64,000 nucleotides of DNA, from the NCBI RefSeq assembly GCF_003002055.1, contig NZ_PVZF01000006.1, forward strand, positions 124,001-188,000, read 5' to 3'. How positions within the stretch are numbered: the first letter of the stretch is position 1; every line of letters begins with the position of its first letter. This stretch comes from Kineococcus rhizosphaerae. Its GTDB lineage: Bacteria; Actinomycetota; Actinomycetes; Actinomycetales; Kineococcaceae. The notes under the pieces were generated by a model. That model worked only from the letters and a program-made list of their open reading frames with translations. It ran no database searches and was not told the origin of the DNA. The position numbers were made by a program, and so were the translations under genes. This document shows positions 49,599 through 56,843 of the stretch, one piece after another.

Positions 49599-49910
49599 AT
49601 GGCGACCGACTACGACGCTCCCCGCAAGACCGATGAGGACCTCGAGGCCGACTCGATCGAGGAACTGAAGACCCAGCGCAGCGACAAGACGTCGTCCTCG
49701 CGCGTGGACGAGGACGAGAACGAGGCCGCTGAGGGCTTCGAGCTCCCCGGGGCGGACCTGTCGGGTGAAGAGCTGACGGTGCAGGTGCTGCCGCGCCAGC
49801 AGGACGAGTTCACCTGCACGAGCTGCTTCCTGGTCAAGCACCGCAGCCAGCTGCACACCGCCCGGAGCAACAACGACGGACAGCTGATCTGCGACGACTG
49901 CGCCGACTGA
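49599..49910 (+). CDS. DUF4193-family zinc-ribbon-like protein
   Basis: A 103-residue acidic protein of the DUF4193 family, conserved in Actinomycetota and of unknown function. MATDYDAPRKTDEDLEADSIEEL and the second half with paired cysteines (FTCTSCFLVKHRSQL and LICDDCAD) are diagnostic; CxxC pairs suggest one zinc site. ATG 49599 follows AGGAGAGG. It stands alone here; whether it is the only genomic copy cannot be judged. Confidence 0.88.
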   Translation: MATDYDAPRKTDEDLEADSIEELKTQRSDKTSSSRVDEDENEAAEGFELPGADLSGEELTVQVLPRQQDEFTCTSCFLVKHRSQLHTARSNNDGQLICDDCAD

Positions 49911-50819: not shown

Positions 50820-51710
50820 TCAGTCGATGTGTTCCAGTTCCCACGTCCGGGCGTGCCGATCGTCGATGGCCGAGCAGGTCAGCCGGTGGGCGGGCGCCGA
50901 TCCGACGCGCAAGTGCACCCCGAACACCCGACCTCCGTGTTCGAGGTCGACGCGCCAGCGTCCCCCTTCCTCGTCGACGACGGCCCGAGGACGCAGCGCC
51001 TCGATCCCGTCGATCCCCCGTTGCAGCCGGACGTGGCCCTCGGCGGCTTGGACCACCCCGGGATCGCAGGAGCGTCCCCGCAGCAGGTGCGGCAGGACGC
51101 GGTCGTCCTGCAGCGCGGCCAGCAGGGCGGGTGCGTCGTCCGGTGACAGCCGACCGTGCGTGATCCCCGACGGCAGGGACAGCGCGGTCGCCGCGAACCG
51201 GTCACCGCCCAGGTGGGAGCACTCCCAGACGGGGTCGGGGTCGAGGGCGGCCAAGGCAGCGACGACGGGACGTCCCCGCAGGGCGCAGCACCAGTCCTTC
51301 TTCCCGTGCGTGCAGACCAGCAGCAGCTGGTCACCGTGCGGCGACCACCCCTCCGCGGCAGCTGCGGCGTGGGCGATGCTCGTGGCCGGGGTCGTCCTCG
51401 TGAGGGTTCGGGCGTGACCGCGGCGGACGTCGACGAGGAACAGGCGTCTGGGTCCGTGCGGGTCGAGGTCGCGCGTCCCGTGGCGGCGGATCAACAGGAG
51501 TTTCAGGCCGCGTCCCTGAGCCGTCCGCCGGACTGCGTCGGTCGTCTCGGCCCCCAGCCGCGACGCGGGAACGGCCCCGGGCCCCCACGCGCCCGGCTCT
51601 TCGATCAGGAGGTAGCCGCGCACCGCGGTGGCGGTCCCGAGCAAGGCGTCGCCCCGCTCGTCCGCCGCCGCGGCGCACGAGAACCTCCGCGCGATGGCCT
51701 GCGTGCTCAG
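50820..51710 (-). CDS. Sucrase/ferredoxin-like family protein (thioredoxin-fold 2Fe-2S)
   Basis: About 296 residues. The family motif CTHGKKDWCCALRGRPV (C133, C141, C142) and WECSHLGGDRFAAT (C164) supply four cysteines expected to hold a 2Fe-2S cluster. Conventional starts begin only at TTG 51644, which would cut off the family's N-terminal segment (RRFSCAAAADERGDALLGTA). The frame reaches a CTG at 51710 whose CTGA overlaps the JmjC stop, mirroring the GTGA overlaps elsewhere, so a CTG start is my preference. It is third in the peptide-JmjC-ferredoxin operon and may deliver electrons. Confidence 0.75.
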   Translation of the reverse strand: MSTQAIARRFSCAAAADERGDALLGTATAVRGYLLIEEPGAWGPGAVPASRLGAETTDAVRRTAQGRGLKLLLIRRHGTRDLDPHGPRRLFLVDVRRGHARTLTRTTPATSIAHAAAAAEGWSPHGDQLLLVCTHGKKDWCCALRGRPVVAALAALDPDPVWECSHLGGDRFAATALSLPSGITHGRLSPDDAPALLAALQDDRVLPHLLRGRSCDPGVVQAAEGHVRLQRGIDGIEALRPRAVVDEEGGRWRVDLEHGGRVFGVHLRVGSAPAHRLTCSAIDDRHARTWELEHID

Positions 51711-52960
51711 ACCTGCTCCCCCGCCGGCAGGAGCACGCTCTCGCGCAGCAGACGACGCAGGACCACCAGGGCATCGTCGGGGTCGAGCCCCACCGCAGCC
51801 AACTCCGACGCCGAGGTCCGTTCCGCGGCCAGGACGTGCTCCAGAGCCGGACGCAGCCAGCCGGGGAACGTGATCCGGCGGTCCGGCAGGACGACGTCCA
51901 CCGTCTCCCCGCCCCCCGTCAGCCGAGCACGGGTGCCGCGGCGCGGCCTCAACGGACGCTGCGCGGTGAGGGTGCGGACCGCTTCGTCCTGCGCGAGGAC
52001 CGGAACGGGTTCCGGCGGCACGGCACCGGCCTGGCGACGGGCGGCGAGGCGGTGGACCGCGTCGTCGTCGAGGGTGTCCAGCCAGCGCTGGGCGGCGGCG
52101 CGGAACTCCTTGACCTCCTCCGGGGACAGCGCGCCGGGCAGCGGGAGAGCCCGTCGCAGGGCCACGTCCTCAGCCCCCGCCGAGGCGACCGCGTCACCGA
52201 GGACGTCGGCCCACGTCGTCGCCAGGAGACCGACCGTCAGGTGGATGGAGCGGTCCTCGGTCGTGCGGGCCGAGTGCAGCCAGCCTCTGGGGAGGTAGAG
52301 GGCGTCACCGGGTTCGAGCACCGTGTCGATGACCGGGGCGCGCCCACCCACGGGATCCGGGCCCAGGCGGGTGGAGGGCTGCGACTTCGACGGCAGCTCG
52401 ACCACGGGCGGGTGGATCGTCCAGTGCTTGCGCCCGTCGACCTGCAGCACCACGACGTCGTGGGTGTCGTGGTGGGGTTTGAAACCCTGCGCACCCGGCG
52501 GGGTGATGTAGACGTTGACCTGGCACTGGTGGCCCAGGTCCTCGGCGAGCTGGGAGCAGAACGTCTGCAGCGGCGGCCAGGTGCGGTGCAACGCCTGCAG
52601 GACGATGGTCGCCCCGGCCGCGTGGGCCGCCGCGATGCGTTCGGAGTCGGGCAGGTCGGCCAACTGCTGGTTGCCGGCCACCGCGCGCCGGGTGTAGCCC
52701 GAACGCGGCAGCGGTGTGCCGTTCTGCACCAGGGAGAAGAAGGGGGTGCGCAGCGCGCGTGGGCCCAGCAGCTCGTCCACGTCGACCGGTGAGAGCAGGT
52801 CGTGCACGGACGCCCGGCCGCCCTCGGCGGCGCGCTCGGCTGCGCGCACGAGCAGCGGGCGGGCGTTCCAGTGCTCCTCGGCGAGGCGGTCTGCGGCGGC
52901 GCCGAAGCACCGCCGCAGCGCCGGGCCGGCTGCGACCACGTCAGGCCCCAGCGGGGTCAC
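51707..52960 (-). CDS. JmjC-domain (cupin-like) oxygenase, ribosomal-oxygenase type
   Basis: A 417-residue Fe(II)/2-oxoglutarate oxygenase of the RoxA/NO66-like group. The metal motif is in FKPHHDTHDVVVLQVDGRKHW (H163, D165) and the distal H229 in YLPRGWLHSA. A C-terminal helical/winged-helix part (about 300-417) follows, as in ribosomal oxygenases, which hydroxylate protein side chains. GTG 52960 lies inside the last 20 bases of the repeat-peptide gene, so the two are coupled; a longer frame to 53158 is only the shadow of that gene. Its likely substrate is a peptide or protein. Confidence 0.82.
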   Translation of the reverse strand: MTPLGPDVVAAGPALRRCFGAAADRLAEEHWNARPLLVRAAERAAEGGRASVHDLLSPVDVDELLGPRALRTPFFSLVQNGTPLPRSGYTRRAVAGNQQLADLPDSERIAAAHAAGATIVLQALHRTWPPLQTFCSQLAEDLGHQCQVNVYITPPGAQGFKPHHDTHDVVVLQVDGRKHWTIHPPVVELPSKSQPSTRLGPDPVGGRAPVIDTVLEPGDALYLPRGWLHSARTTEDRSIHLTVGLLATTWADVLGDAVASAGAEDVALRRALPLPGALSPEEVKEFRAAAQRWLDTLDDDAVHRLAARRQAGAVPPEPVPVLAQDEAVRTLTAQRPLRPRRGTRARLTGGGETVDVVLPDRRITFPGWLRPALEHVLAAERTSASELAAVGLDPDDALVVLRRLLRESVLLPAGEQV

Positions 52961-53171
52961 TGCCCGCCGGGTCGCTGCCGGAGGGGTCGACCTGGGTGGA
53001 GTCGGAGTCGCCGGAGTCGGCGTCCCCACCCTCACCTCCGTCGGGGTCGACACCTGCCGGGTCGCTGCCGGAGGGGTCGACCTGGGTGGCGTCGCTGTCG
53101 CCGGAGTCGGAATCCCCCTCGGTCGGGGTCGTGGCGGTGGTGGTGATGTCGTCGTCACTGAGGTTGCTCAT
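52941..53171 (-). CDS. Acidic tandem-repeat peptide, candidate precursor peptide
   Basis: A 76-residue peptide: leader-like MSNLSDDDITTTATTPTEGD (1-20), then two 30-residue-period repeats built on DSGDSDATQVDPSGSDPAG and DSGDSDSTQVDPSGSDPAG, ending SDPAGA. It has 18 Asp and 2 Glu but no Lys, Arg, His, Cys or aromatic residue. The DNA repeats exactly for 34 bases with a 90-base period. The ATG at 53171 lacks a strong ribosome binding site. Overlap with the JmjC oxygenase gene suggests it is that enzyme's substrate, as in modified-peptide (RiPP) loci. A Ca2+-binding or disordered linker protein is the main alternative. Confidence 0.6.
   Translation of the reverse strand: MSNLSDDDITTTATTPTEGDSDSGDSDATQVDPSGSDPAGVDPDGGEGGDADSGDSDSTQVDPSGSDPAGSDPAGA
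52966..53110. repeat. 90-bp-period tandem repeat inside the peptide gene
   Basis: The 34 bases at 52966-52999 recur identically at 53056-53089; 53000-53020 and 53090-53110 continue the match with three mismatches. The unit length of 90 bases keeps the reading frame (30 codons). Confidence 0.8.
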
Positions 53172-53314
53172 GCGCGGAGCGTTGCACCGCTCACCCCGCC
53201 CAGCCACCCGGGGCGACGTGCCCCCGCCCTCCGGGGGGACCGTCCGGGACCGGCGGAGGAGGACGCCGCACGGGGGACGGCCCACCTCGTCGCAGGAGGT
53301 CGGACGACTGGCGA

Positions 53315-53485
53315 GACACCCGCCAGGACACCCCTCGTCGTTCGACGAGGCGGGTCGAGCTCCGACGCGCGCCTCCCTTCGAGAACCCGCACGTGCGACC
53401 CGTCGACCACCGCGGTCCGGAGGTCCAGCGGGCCGGCCGCGCTCAGCGCCTCCCGGACCCGCGGCGGCCACTGCGAGCAGGTCGT
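53315..53485 (-). pseudogene. Decayed IS5-family transposase fragment
   Basis: On the minus strand the frame reads TTCSQWPPRVREALSAAG, PLDLRTAVVDGSHVRVLEG, then RRASELDPPRRTTRGVLAGV. This matches the IS5-type DDE block in which the first catalytic Asp lies in AVVDGSHVRALKGG followed by PVDRGKxGSKHH; here the conserved second part is degraded and no catalytic remainder or terminal repeats are seen. It is a relic between the two arms of the peptide cassette. Confidence 0.65.
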
Positions 53486-53802
53486 GTCCTCCGGACCAGC
53501 TCGGGCCCGACGCCGACGGAGGGCCCGACCTCCTGGGACGACCCGGCGGCCACGGGCCGTGTCGAGGTCCGCGGGAAGACGCGGGGCGAGCAGGTGCGGC
53601 ACCCGCTCGAGCCACCCGGACCAGCGTCCCGATCGACGAGTTCCGACACGGGCACGGCACGGAGGGCGCGATCAGCAGACCCGGGGTCGTGGAGACGTGG
53701 TGCGCGCCGTCGCGGCGACCAGCACGAAACCCCTGCCTCCCCGGCCGTGGAGCCTGTGCTCGCCACCGGGCCGGACGTGGAACCCGGTGGTATGACATCA
53801 GC
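53486..53802. other. Intergenic stretch upstream of the hydrolase fusion gene
   Basis: About 320 bases with no supportable gene; open frames on both strands give arginine-rich translations. It may hold further degraded insertion-sequence DNA. At its right end TATGAC (53791-53796) is a -10-like box 6 bases before the next GTG. Confidence 0.4.
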
Positions 53803-55251
53803 GTGCCCACCCCGATCTTCTGCCTGCACGCCCTGGGCTCCAGCTCCCGGGAGTTCGACCTCCTGCGCGACCTGCTCGCCGACCGCCTGGAACTCATCGG
53901 TCTCGACCTGCCGGGTTTCGGCGGTTCCGCGGCCCTGCCCGGGTTCACCGTCGAGGAGATGAGCGCCCACGTCGAGGACGCGATCCGCTCGCACGGAGCC
54001 ACCGAGTGGGCGTTGCTGGGGCATTCCCTGGGCGGCAAGGTCGCCTCGGTCGTGGCGGGGCGGACCATGGACGGCAGCAACGGCCTGTTCGGGTTGCGGG
54101 CGGTCGTCCTGCTGGCCGCCTCCCCGCTGTCCCCCGAACCCATGTCCGACGAACGGCGGCAGTCGATGCTGGCCTGGGCCCAGGACGTCACCCCGTTCCG
54201 GGAGGTGGCGTCGAACGACGCGCGTGCTGCGGGCATCGGCCTCGCGCACGCGCACGAGTTCATCACGGCCAACACCGCCGCACCGCTGTCCCCCGACCGC
54301 GACGCGACGGCCGTCGACGACGTCCTGCGCACCTCCGCGCGGGCCTGGGCCGCGTGGCTGCGCCACGGCAGCAGGGAGGACTGGTCCCGGCAGTTCGCCC
54401 CCAACCCCGTTCCCGCCCTCGTACTGGCCGGTGCGCAGGACGGTGACCTCGACGCCGACGCGCAGCGGGAACTCACCCTGCCGCGCTGGACGGCGGCAGA
54501 GCTGCACGAGGTGCCCGGCGCCGCGCACCTCCTGCCCTGGGAGCGTCCCGATGAGGTCGCGAGCCTCGTCCGGGACTTCTGGGACCGCCGGGTCCGTACC
54601 GGCCCGAGCGTGCCGCCCGCCTGGGCGCGGCTCATCGCCTCCGAGCGCGTCAGTTCCCGCACGCGCCGGGAACTGGCCGCGCGGGCCCTGCCGGACGACC
54701 CCGCGAGGTCCCCCCGGGCGTTGGACGACACCCAGCTGGAGACGTTGCGCGTCCTGGCCGCGCACGCGGTCCCGCAACCGGGTCCGGACGCGGTCGACCT
54801 GGCGCTGCGCGTCGACGACCAGCTCGCCCGTGGTTCCGGTGACGGGTGGCGACCCGACGGATCGCCCGCCGACGTCGTCGCCTACCGGGCCGCCCTCGAC
54901 GAGCTGCGCGCCGCAGCGGACGGTGCCCCCGAGGACGTCGCCGCCGTGCTGGACCGGGTCGCGGCGGGGACCTTCCCGACGGTGGGCGCGATGGGCCCCG
55001 AGCAGCTGCGCGCCTGGTGGGAGGACGCCACCGTGGACCTGGTGCGGCAGTGGATCGGCCACCCGGCGACCATGGCCGCTCTCGACTACGACGGGTTCGC
55101 GACCGGCGGTGACCGGACCCTCGTGACCGGGTTCGGCGCGCTGGGCGGCGCCGCCCGCGAGGAGTGGGAACCGCCGCCGCCCCGGCGTCCGCTCCCCGTG
55201 GTGAGTGGTGCCGAGGACCGGGTACGCCCGACCTGCGGAGGGACCCGGTGA
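53803..55251 (+). CDS. Alpha/beta hydrolase fused to a gluconate 2-dehydrogenase subunit 3-like domain
   Basis: A 482-residue two-part protein. Residues 1-265 are an alpha/beta hydrolase: oxyanion segment CLHALGSSSREFD, nucleophile S75 in LLGHSLGGK, acid D213 in AGAQDGD and H242 in VPGAAHLL. Residues 275-460 are helical (LDDTQLETLRVLAAHAVPQP, LRAWWEDATVDLVRQWIG, HPATMAALDYDGF) and resemble the gluconate 2-dehydrogenase subunit 3 family, whose members help assemble or export the GMC subunit. The next gene, overlapping by GTGA, is exactly such a GMC enzyme, which supports the assignment. No signal peptide is seen. Transcript probably leaderless (TATGAC, 6 bases, GTG). Confidence 0.75.
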   Translation: MPTPIFCLHALGSSSREFDLLRDLLADRLELIGLDLPGFGGSAALPGFTVEEMSAHVEDAIRSHGATEWALLGHSLGGKVASVVAGRTMDGSNGLFGLRAVVLLAASPLSPEPMSDERRQSMLAWAQDVTPFREVASNDARAAGIGLAHAHEFITANTAAPLSPDRDATAVDDVLRTSARAWAAWLRHGSREDWSRQFAPNPVPALVLAGAQDGDLDADAQRELTLPRWTAAELHEVPGAAHLLPWERPDEVASLVRDFWDRRVRTGPSVPPAWARLIASERVSSRTRRELAARALPDDPARSPRALDDTQLETLRVLAAHAVPQPGPDAVDLALRVDDQLARGSGDGWRPDGSPADVVAYRAALDELRAAADGAPEDVAAVLDRVAAGTFPTVGAMGPEQLRAWWEDATVDLVRQWIGHPATMAALDYDGFATGGDRTLVTGFGALGGAAREEWEPPPPRRPLPVVSGAEDRVRPTCGGTR

Positions 55252-56843
55252 AGCTCGACGGGCAACGCCGCTTCGACGGCGAGGACGTCGTCGACGTCGT
55301 CGTGGTGGGCACCGGCGCGGGCGGTGCGCCCCTGCTGTCCGAACTGGCGCGCAGGGGTCTGCGCGTGGTGGCCCTCGAAGCCGGCCCGAACCTCGAACCC
55401 GGGGACCACTCCCCCGACGAGACCGTGGCCGCCGGCCAGATCAACTGGATGCGCGAACGTCTCAGCGGCGGGAGCGCGCCCACGGCCTTCGGCCCCAACA
55501 ACAGCGGTACCGGCGTGGGGGGTTCGACCCTGCACTGGGGGGCGTTCACCCCTCGTCCCAGCGTCCACGACCTGCGGTTGCGCACCGAGACCGGCCTCGG
55601 ACAGGACTGGCCCATCGGGTACGACGACCTGGTCGGCTGGATCGAGCGCGTCGAACGCGAGGTCGGGGTCGCCGGTCCTGAGCACTACCCGTGGGACCCC
55701 TCGCGCCGCTACCTGCTGCCCCCGCCCCCTCGCAACGCCTCGGCCAGCGCCATGCTGCGCGGGTGCGCCGAGGTGGGGATCACGGCCGTCGACGCACCCG
55801 CCGCGCTGACGACGCGTGACCGCCAGCAGCCCGGGTTCGGCCTGCGCCGGGCCTGCGTCTCGTGCGGGGGGTGCCACCAGGGGTGCCGCAACGGGTCGAA
55901 GGTGTCGATGGACACCACGTACCTGCCGGCGGCGGTCGCCGCAGGAGCCGAGATCCGGCCCGACTCCTTCGTGCACACCATCGACGTCGACAGCAGCGGT
56001 GCCGTCTCCTCGGTCGTCTACCACCAGGACGGGCGCGATCACCGCCAGCGCTGCCGGGCCCTGGTGCTCGCCGCCGGAGGCGTGGAGACACCGCGTCTGC
56101 TCCTGAACACCGGGTTGGCCAACGCCAGCGGTCAGGTGGGCCGCAACTTCACCGCCCACGGCGCGACGCAGGTGTGGGGCCGGTTCGAGGACCCCGTGCG
56201 TTCCTACCGCGGCTACCCCTCCTCAATCATCACCGAGGACACCGCACGGCCCGCCGACGCCGACTTCGCCGGTGGCTACCTGATCCAGAGCCTGGGCGTC
56301 CAACCCTCGACGTACGCGACGTCCCTGGTGCGTGGCGGTGGGCTGCGCGGCGCCGAACTCGTGGCTGCGCTGCAGGACTACCCGCACGTGGCCGGGGTCG
56401 GGATCAACGCCGAGTGCCTGCCGTCCGAGGCCAACCGCCTTGAACTGGCCGACGAGACCGACGACCTCGGAATCCCCCTGACCCGGGTCAGCTTCTCCCC
56501 CGGCGCCAACGAGACCGCACTGCGACAGCACGCGGTCCAGACCATGACCGCGATCGTCGAAGCGGCGGGTGGTCGCGATCTGCGGGTCCTGGAACGCACC
56601 GCCCACACCGTCGGCACGGCCCGGATGGGGACCGACCCGGCGTCCTCCGTGGTCGACCCGGACGGGCGGTCCTGGCAGGTGCCGAACCTCTGGATCTGCG
56701 ACAACTCGATCTTCCCCAGTTCCCTCATCGCCAACCCGGCCCTGACGATCATGGCTCTGTCGCTGCGCACCGCCGAAGCCGTGGCCCGCAGCACCGACCC
56801 GCAGCACCGACCCGCAGGAAGGCGAACGCACGTGGAGGACTGA
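55248..56843 (+). CDS. GMC-family oxidoreductase with Fe-S cysteine motif
   Basis: A 531-residue FAD enzyme of the gluconate/glucose dehydrogenase group. FAD loop VVVVGTGAGGAPLLSELARRG (17-37), GVGGSTLHWGAF, and C-terminal HTVGTARMGTDPASSVVDPDGR with the active-site His region, then NPALTIMALSLRTAE. C203, C206, C209 and C213 (CVSCGGCHQGC) match the cluster motif of relatives such as the FAD glucose dehydrogenase catalytic subunit, which carries a 3Fe-4S cluster. It oxidises an alcohol group and passes electrons on. GTG 55248 follows GGAGGG and overlaps the fusion gene stop. Confidence 0.88.
   Translation: MKLDGQRRFDGEDVVDVVVVGTGAGGAPLLSELARRGLRVVALEAGPNLEPGDHSPDETVAAGQINWMRERLSGGSAPTAFGPNNSGTGVGGSTLHWGAFTPRPSVHDLRLRTETGLGQDWPIGYDDLVGWIERVEREVGVAGPEHYPWDPSRRYLLPPPPRNASASAMLRGCAEVGITAVDAPAALTTRDRQQPGFGLRRACVSCGGCHQGCRNGSKVSMDTTYLPAAVAAGAEIRPDSFVHTIDVDSSGAVSSVVYHQDGRDHRQRCRALVLAAGGVETPRLLLNTGLANASGQVGRNFTAHGATQVWGRFEDPVRSYRGYPSSIITEDTARPADADFAGGYLIQSLGVQPSTYATSLVRGGGLRGAELVAALQDYPHVAGVGINAECLPSEANRLELADETDDLGIPLTRVSFSPGANETALRQHAVQTMTAIVEAAGGRDLRVLERTAHTVGTARMGTDPASSVVDPDGRSWQVPNLWICDNSIFPSSLIANPALTIMALSLRTAEAVARSTDPQHRPAGRRTHVED

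Follow-up and report, generated by a model that had tools for sequence, protein, structure and literature searches.

A recurrent gene module of an Asp-rich repeat peptide, a JmjC oxygenase and a ferredoxin-like protein in Actinomycetota, and its candidate role in peptide modification

The three-gene locus of Kineococcus rhizosphaerae

The window analysed here is a stretch of 64,000 nucleotides from Kineococcus rhizosphaerae (contig NZ_PVZF01000006.1, positions 124,001 to 188,000), and the subject of this work is a group of three genes on its reverse strand, encoding a short acidic repeat peptide, a JmjC-type 2-oxoglutarate oxygenase and a sucrase/ferredoxin-like [2Fe-2S] protein. The peptide gene is an ATG to TGA frame at 52941..53171 (minus strand). 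Its product of 76 residues is precursor-like, contains 18 Asp and lacks Lys, Arg and His. The leader-like N-terminus, MSNLSDDDITTT (53136..53171, minus), has similar counterparts in most relatives and is followed by two repeats, GDSDSGDSDATQVDPSGSDPAGVDPDGGE (53031..53117, minus) and GGDADSGDSDSTQVDPSGSDPAGSDPAGA (52944..53030, minus). The oxygenase gene (51707..52960, minus) is of the ribosomal oxygenase (ROX)/NO66 type and matches PF08007 with E 2.6e-29. Its start is a GTG at either 52960 or 52939; the former gives an overlap of 20 nt with the peptide gene, and the latter a gap of 1 nt. The C-terminal part of the oxygenase (51710..51961, minus) corresponds to a predicted winged-helix domain of beta3-alpha3 type, which in modelled structure and Foldseek matches resembles both NO66/YcfD and the recognition elements (RREs) of ribosomally synthesised and post-translationally modified peptides (RiPPs).

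The third gene (PF06999, E 3.9e-16) occupies 50820..51710 on the minus strand if it starts at CTG, or begins at 51644 if the TTG of the open reading frame list is used. The reading frame upstream of TTG 51644 is kept in other Kineococcus back to CTG 51710, and the CTG is probably the true start, since initiation at TTG would remove a conserved N-terminus containing a Cys. The first-pass annotation had listed five genes at this locus, the three above and two divergent ones discussed further below. All five are present, and Pfam matches support the oxygenase, the ferredoxin-like protein, the hydrolase and the glucose-methanol-choline (GMC) oxidoreductase among them. The gene overlaps claimed in the same annotation depend on the choice of start codons: peptide and oxygenase genes overlap only with GTG 52960, and the ferredoxin-like gene overlaps the oxygenase stop codon with CTG 51710 but not with TTG 51644.

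Recurrence and conservation of the module

Within the family of the window's organism the oxygenase was present in 7 of 12 genomes, and the ferredoxin-like gene occurred in exactly the same seven. Oxygenases 73-74% identical to that of the window were found in Kineococcus indalonis, K. siccus, K. rubinsiae and K. sp. TRM81007, while plasmid records gave only relatives below 60% identity. When the class was searched with a profile built from seven Kineococcus JmjC proteins, 120 of 394 genomes, counting that of the window, gave a match at E<=1e-20. At E<=1.4e-55, a cut-off set after viewing the match list, 63 genomes remained besides the window's own, and 60 of these were taken with their flanks (G095, G299 and G285 were left out). 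An acidic low-complexity frame was situated beside the oxygenase start in all 60 loci, being non-repetitive in L075 and L087.

The pairing was quantified in these 60 loci together with five Kineococcus loci; L107, where the sequence begins at the oxygenase gene, was excluded. A frame was counted if it had at least 30 residues, if its last 50 residues consisted to at least 75% of G/A/D/S/T/E/N/Q with at least 10% Asp, and if its end fell within -160 to +120 nt of a gene start. By this definition an Asp-rich frame preceded the oxygenase in 65 of 65 loci, whereas none of the 444 further gene starts in these loci had one. The contrast was stable to the composition threshold, with 65/65 against 1/444 at 0.70 and 64/65 against none at 0.80. 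The 444 control starts, as well as the neighbour counts given later, derive from approximate genes called by a simple procedure based on G+C content at third codon positions. A 48-row profile was further used against 396 genomes of the phylum. It matched 53 at E<=1e-60, and 36 of the matching genomes belong to other classes. Seventeen phylum loci were examined, L136-L152, representing the best-scoring 16 of the 36 other-class genomes with a locus, and L148, which repeats the genome of L101. All 17 carried an Asp-rich frame before the oxygenase and an N-terminal motif like LSDEDIETV. A precursor-like peptide encoded beside a putative modifying enzyme, the arrangement typical of RiPP systems, recurs across taxa.

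The ferredoxin-like gene follows the oxygenase immediately on its 3' side in 49 of the 60 class loci and in 6/6 Kineococcus loci, and lies downstream in 15 of the 17 phylum loci; among 14 more distant loci it was found in this position in six. The first-pass annotation had joined peptide, oxygenase and ferredoxin-like gene in one system, and both the peptide frame, in many genera, and the ferredoxin-like gene do recur beside the oxygenase. The data support a recurrent module of three genes. At locus L111 (genome G230) a second sucrase/ferredoxin-like frame was noticed about 1.2 kb upstream of the oxygenase, in addition to the downstream one, so that two modules are perhaps adjacent there.

The peptides share a common plan. 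Five other Kineococcus loci (L102-L106) encode a peptide with the identical two-repeat architecture, and pairwise dN/dS among the six Kineococcus sequences (15 pairs) ranged from 0.14 to 0.42, with a pooled pN/pS of 0.32. Judged from these ratios, the peptide evolves under purifying selection, and the frame is conserved at protein level, a point on which the earlier annotation had let its proposal depend. A chance low-complexity frame in high-GC DNA, which was considered as a trivial explanation, is ruled out by the control comparison and the dN/dS values together. A motif of LSDDDITTT, LDDDDITTS or LSDEDIETV type was recognised by regular expression at the N-terminus of 53 out of 72 class rows. 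The motif is followed by repeats in tandem, whose types include GEGPADGGSNPEGHDGGADGTA, EGPADGGAEGTPGVHDGGADGGA, simple (GGAD)n and DADGTDGDATD, and in Kineococcus GDSDATQVDPSGSDPAG. A division into leader-like motif and repeat region is visible at sequence level in most precursors, the motif not being universal. In the last 60 residues of the 65 peptides, D, G and A alone are universal and C, F, W and Y occur in none; the core of L051 is composed of G, A and D alone. Peptide length varies from tens of residues to well beyond one hundred. Low complexity, strong acidity and a position abutting or overlapping the oxygenase start would also suit a hydrophilic protective protein, or an upstream reading frame that couples or attenuates translation. 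We regard this as very unlikely, as motif and repeats recur from Kineococcus to other classes, dN/dS is well below 1, and the frames are long for an attenuator.

Public family models did not capture the module. Five of the peptides gave no match in Pfam. Against NCBIfam one of the same five showed matches to MSCRAMM low-complexity models far below the cut-offs and the others none, and four more peptides had no match. Altogether, neither the window's peptide, oxygenase and ferredoxin-like protein nor nine other peptides reached an NCBIfam cut-off, and annotation based on NCBIfam would therefore miss the pairing.

The oxygenase and a possible modification chemistry

Besides the PF08007 match the oxygenase has the HxD...H metal triad that characterises ROX proteins, and H163, D165, H229 and K178 are invariant in the 48-row alignment (made without row L047). 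Its AlphaFold2 model had a mean pLDDT of 92.9, and the best fold matches of the model in the PDB were NO66, MINA53 and YcfD, with NO66 4ccn on top (E 3.4e-25); a sequence search pointed to the same three as nearest solved structures. In the model, the C-terminal domain comprises strands 346-350, 353-357 and 362-366, followed by helices 367-378, 384-389 and 394-406. The beta3-alpha3 order is given as a requirement for RREs in the section of PMC12710340 on these elements. When folded alone the domain again reached pLDDT 92.9, and Foldseek returned heterocyclases including TruD (cyanobactin), together with YcfD, McbBCD, NO66, TigE, ThcOx, PqqD, TbiB1 and PbtF. An RRE is named in the title of the PbtF entry; TruD and the other heterocyclases, McbBCD, PqqD and TbiB1 we take to be RRE-bearing as well. 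Because Foldseek finds both kinds alike, the modelled domain could equally be called a ROX winged helix or an RRE, and leader binding by it is plausible.

In the ferredoxin-like family, 62 rows selected by similarity alone, with no motif imposed, had C111, C119, C120 and H144 throughout, and D148 in 61, with Cys in the remaining one (numbering from the TTG start). The Apd1/Aim32 proteins share with this family the PF06999 domain and the CX8C spacing (C111/C120). They differ at the second half of the cluster motif, which in the part of PMC8482512 dealing with Aim32 is CX8C-Xn-HX3H, whereas the window's family has HX3D (H144, D148) in the 61 rows.

From these observations we infer, with moderate confidence, a three-gene RiPP-like system of post-translational modification, consisting of a peptide substrate, leader recognition, hydroxylation of repeats and a redox partner. 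The peptide would be the substrate, its LSDDDITT-like N-terminal motif serving as a leader for the winged helix at the C-terminus of the oxygenase and its Asp/Gly/Ala-rich repeats as the core. Using Fe(II), 2-oxoglutarate and O2, the oxygenase would introduce several hydroxyl groups into the repeats of each chain; the most probable site is the C-beta of Asp, which would yield 3-hydroxyaspartate. The first-pass annotation had put forward Asp, Val, Pro, Thr and Ser as targets. Asp is favoured over the other four, as it is present in every one of the 65 repeat regions, a property shared only by Gly and Ala. C-beta chemistry is proposed by analogy to the ROX enzymes and to the JmjC RiPP hydroxylases BipG and PbsQ; among the former, NO66 and MINA53 are C-beta hydroxylases of His, and YcfD of Arg. 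The [2Fe-2S] protein probably supplies electrons as a redox partner, most simply to keep iron reduced, either that of the oxygenase or iron bound to the modified polypeptide. Such a polypeptide would be a polyanion rich in hydroxyaspartate and would plausibly bind metal; as no further gene family is widely recurrent next to the module, it may remain cytosolic. In its most specific form, the proposal is of an undescribed peptide class, spread through the phylum, where a single NO66-type JmjC enzyme guided by a winged helix hydroxylates tandem Asp/Gly/Ala repeats at many positions, turning them into an encoded cytosolic poly-(3-hydroxyaspartate) metal ligand, with a dedicated [2Fe-2S] donor of Asp-for-His type. 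This we offer only tentatively and regard as rather doubtful. If such a class is real, the eukaryotic NO66 and MINA53 would share their architecture with a bacterial machine for peptide maturation.

Several observations weigh against peptide modification by such a module. Eleven of the 60 class loci lack an adjacent ferredoxin-like gene; eight of these genomes have a PF06999 gene elsewhere, and three have none. Among the 14 more distant JmjC loci (L108-L121), six have the Asp-repeat type of peptide (L108, L111-L115), two another peptide (L117, L121), and in six no peptide was recognised (L109, L110, L116, L118-L120). The regular expression left the N-terminal motif unmatched in 19 of 72 rows, and in L075 and L087 (family code f4) the upstream peptide is acidic, non-repetitive and ends in GPT(I/V)EPGA. 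None of the Foldseek matches of the isolated domain was at E<=0.001, and NO66 and YcfD match the winged helix about as well as RREs do, as a general ROX feature. Loss of the motif was concentrated in a clade of 18 rows (SH-aLRT 98 in a quick tree), 17 of which lack it and the domain end of which is shorter by eye; the single rows L094 and L095 also lack the motif, and the motif-loss label needs four changes on the tree. As joint motif loss and domain change fall mainly in one clade, the covariation of leader and domain, which would speak for leader recognition, is weak and at most suggestive. Many RiPP clusters carry a protease or an exporter, which is common but not obligatory. Clustering of neighbours in 80 loci recovered the oxygenase in 72 and the ferredoxin-like protein in 36, and no further cluster in more than 14 (the members of that one occurring on either strand, and annotation not extending to the minor clusters), so that recurrent protease or export genes beside the module were not found among these loci. 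Lastly, His occurs in 45 of the 65 cores, 82 times immediately before Asp.

In an alternative explanation the same pair of genes performs another chemistry, be it on His in HDGG repeats, hydroxylation of Ser, Thr, Pro or Ala, oxidative cleavage at Gly, desaturation or cross-linking. His before Asp would be a natural target for an NO66-like enzyme, the best fold match is NO66, which PDB titles call a histidine hydroxylase, and Asp-Gly steps are frequent, with 472 cases of Asp followed by Gly. Still, His is absent from 20 of the 65 cores and from the window's peptide, and one core consists of G, A and D only; therefore His, Ser, Thr and Pro are not the common target, and we consider another chemistry unlikely.

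A further explanation is that the enzyme genuinely oxygenates ribosomal or other proteins, and that the peptide is not its substrate but its regulator, pseudo-substrate or chaperone. The nearest solved structures, NO66, MINA53 and YcfD, are consistent with it, and a peptide of acidic repeats could serve as a nucleic acid mimic or associate with a basic partner. The patchy distribution of the module, with the oxygenase in 7/12 family genomes, is however unlike that of a conserved ribosome modifier, and the repeats are conserved and present in multiple copies. In addition, a separate JmjC group with a 35-residue peptide upstream (18/24 loci) and a recurrent gene has a RiPP-type layout. We find a ribosomal role quite improbable, and return to modification of the peptide itself as the favoured interpretation.

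Were that interpretation true, it would describe a large and simple RiPP-like family with JmjC as main enzyme, to judge from the 63 class genomes matched at the stricter cut-off, and bacterial NO66-like proteins would gain a peptide substrate. It would also provide a genetically encoded route to hydroxyaspartate-rich polymers, bear on the relation between ROX winged helices and RiPP recognition elements, and be directly testable by expression of two or three genes.

Neighbouring genes, known systems and minor observations

On the opposite strand of the window, the plus-strand gene at 53803-55251 encodes an alpha/beta hydrolase (PF12697, E 2.2e-18) with a C-terminal extension, and 55164-56843, also plus, encodes a GMC oxidoreductase (PF05199, E 4.6e-24; PF00732, E 2e-17). 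The first-pass annotation had made these two genes part of the pathway, with hydroxylation followed by GMC oxidation and then release by the hydrolase, and the two arms are indeed adjacent and divergent in the window. Neither of the two proteins, though, had a match at E<=1e-6 in the 80 JmjC loci, those of Kineococcus included, of which five reach less than 2 kb upstream, where a divergent neighbour could go unseen. The GMC gene was found in 1 of 12 genomes of the family (E<=1e-30). Hydrolase relatives in four other family genomes match the catalytic half only; two of these genomes have no JmjC gene, and in the other two the hydrolase relative and the oxygenase are more than 600 kb apart. In the class sample, G393 and G332 have GMC relatives 63-65% identical to that of the window, preceded by a relative of the whole fusion in L154 and of the C-terminal part only in L155, and both genomes are absent from the JmjC match list. 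The hydrolase fusion and the GMC gene look like bystanders outside the module. A pathway of five genes is refuted as a general system and extremely unlikely here, a strain-specific add-on being possible; of the earlier interpretation, the peptide-oxygenase-ferredoxin part is supported, while GMC oxidation and hydrolase release are not. The hydrolase extension, earlier called GMC-assembly-like, had no Pfam match (best E 0.027), but it does precede GMC genes in the two further genomes. The interval 53803-56843, with the fusion and a GMC protein bearing a CxxCGxCxxGC stretch, forms a separate unit, an arrangement met again in two genomes belonging to the same order. A DUF4193 protein at 49599-49910 (PF13834, E 5.4e-42) is an unrelated neighbour.

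Among known systems, the ROX enzymes (NO66, MINA53, YcfD/RoxA; PF08007) share with the window's oxygenase the JmjC fold, the HxD...H triad and the C-terminal winged helix, at about 24% aligned identity in the case of NO66. The gene context differs: in the module the oxygenase gene comes immediately after that of an Asp-rich repeat peptide and is itself usually followed by a gene for a [2Fe-2S] protein, an arrangement that is not known for ROX enzymes. The nearest hint in the literature is PMC12710340, from 2025, which notes JmjC proteins with PF08007 and a beta3-alpha3 RRE-like domain and places their bacterial homologues in RiPP-like contexts; for these the relevant section gives neither a precursor family nor repeats, a ferredoxin partner or a product. 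BipG, a JmjC ornithine hydroxylase of biphenomycin biosynthesis (PMC12707348), and PbsQ, a JmjC-type RiPP hydroxylase (PMC12257519), resemble the window's system, as far as the relevant passages of these papers describe them, in that a JmjC or cupin-like oxygenase acts on a ribosomal precursor peptide. According to the same passages, their clusters are larger, with an MNIO, a B12-radical SAM enzyme, an arginase-type enzyme, a TldD-type peptidase or a transporter, and BipG targets ornithine, whereas the window's repeats are without Arg. Formation of 3-hydroxyaspartate from a precursor Asp is reported, in the portion of PMC13060819 on nitrilobacillins, for the MNIO-type PesHI, an enzyme of a different family acting on a single Asp, after which a nitrile is formed. 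No paper describing a family of peptide, JmjC protein and ferredoxin was among the literature matches listed, in a search covering few subscription journals, and three of the family's repeat strings had no occurrence in the literature searched. The system looks undescribed: its logic is RiPP-like and its enzyme fold known, while the substrate family, the partner and probably the chemistry are new.

A few minor observations were made on individual loci. In L142 (G659) the repeat includes both Arg and Tyr (ADGTDQGVxGGTYGPRDA); the stretch covered there showed no match to the ferredoxin-like protein. Comparison of the DNA before the peptide genes with the IdeR, Zur and Fur boxes gave no close counterpart (best 6/19, 5/15 and 7/19 mismatches) that would support metal binding by the product. 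A promoter-like motif, GTTT(C/G)-spacer-GG(C/T)AA(C/A), was seen in the f12 family upstream of 9 of 14 peptide genes (L059, L060, L063, L065, L066, L070, L073, L074 and L076) compared with 3 of 184 non-peptide genes in these loci, a contrast inflated by the pattern having been picked after viewing those sequences. The separate JmjC group mentioned above has a second, very conserved peptide of MDPIEVEVEDLAEVTSRDITAGGDSDGTDSSSDFI type (35 residues) directly upstream of a more distant JmjC gene (family code f25: L172-L175, L178-L180, L182-L189, L191, L117 and L121). A recurrent gene stands before the peptide in 18/18 of these loci, and the one checked encodes a prolyl oligopeptidase (PF00326, E 3e-32). 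By its gene order, this group looks like another RiPP-type JmjC cluster, of peptidase, precursor and oxygenase.

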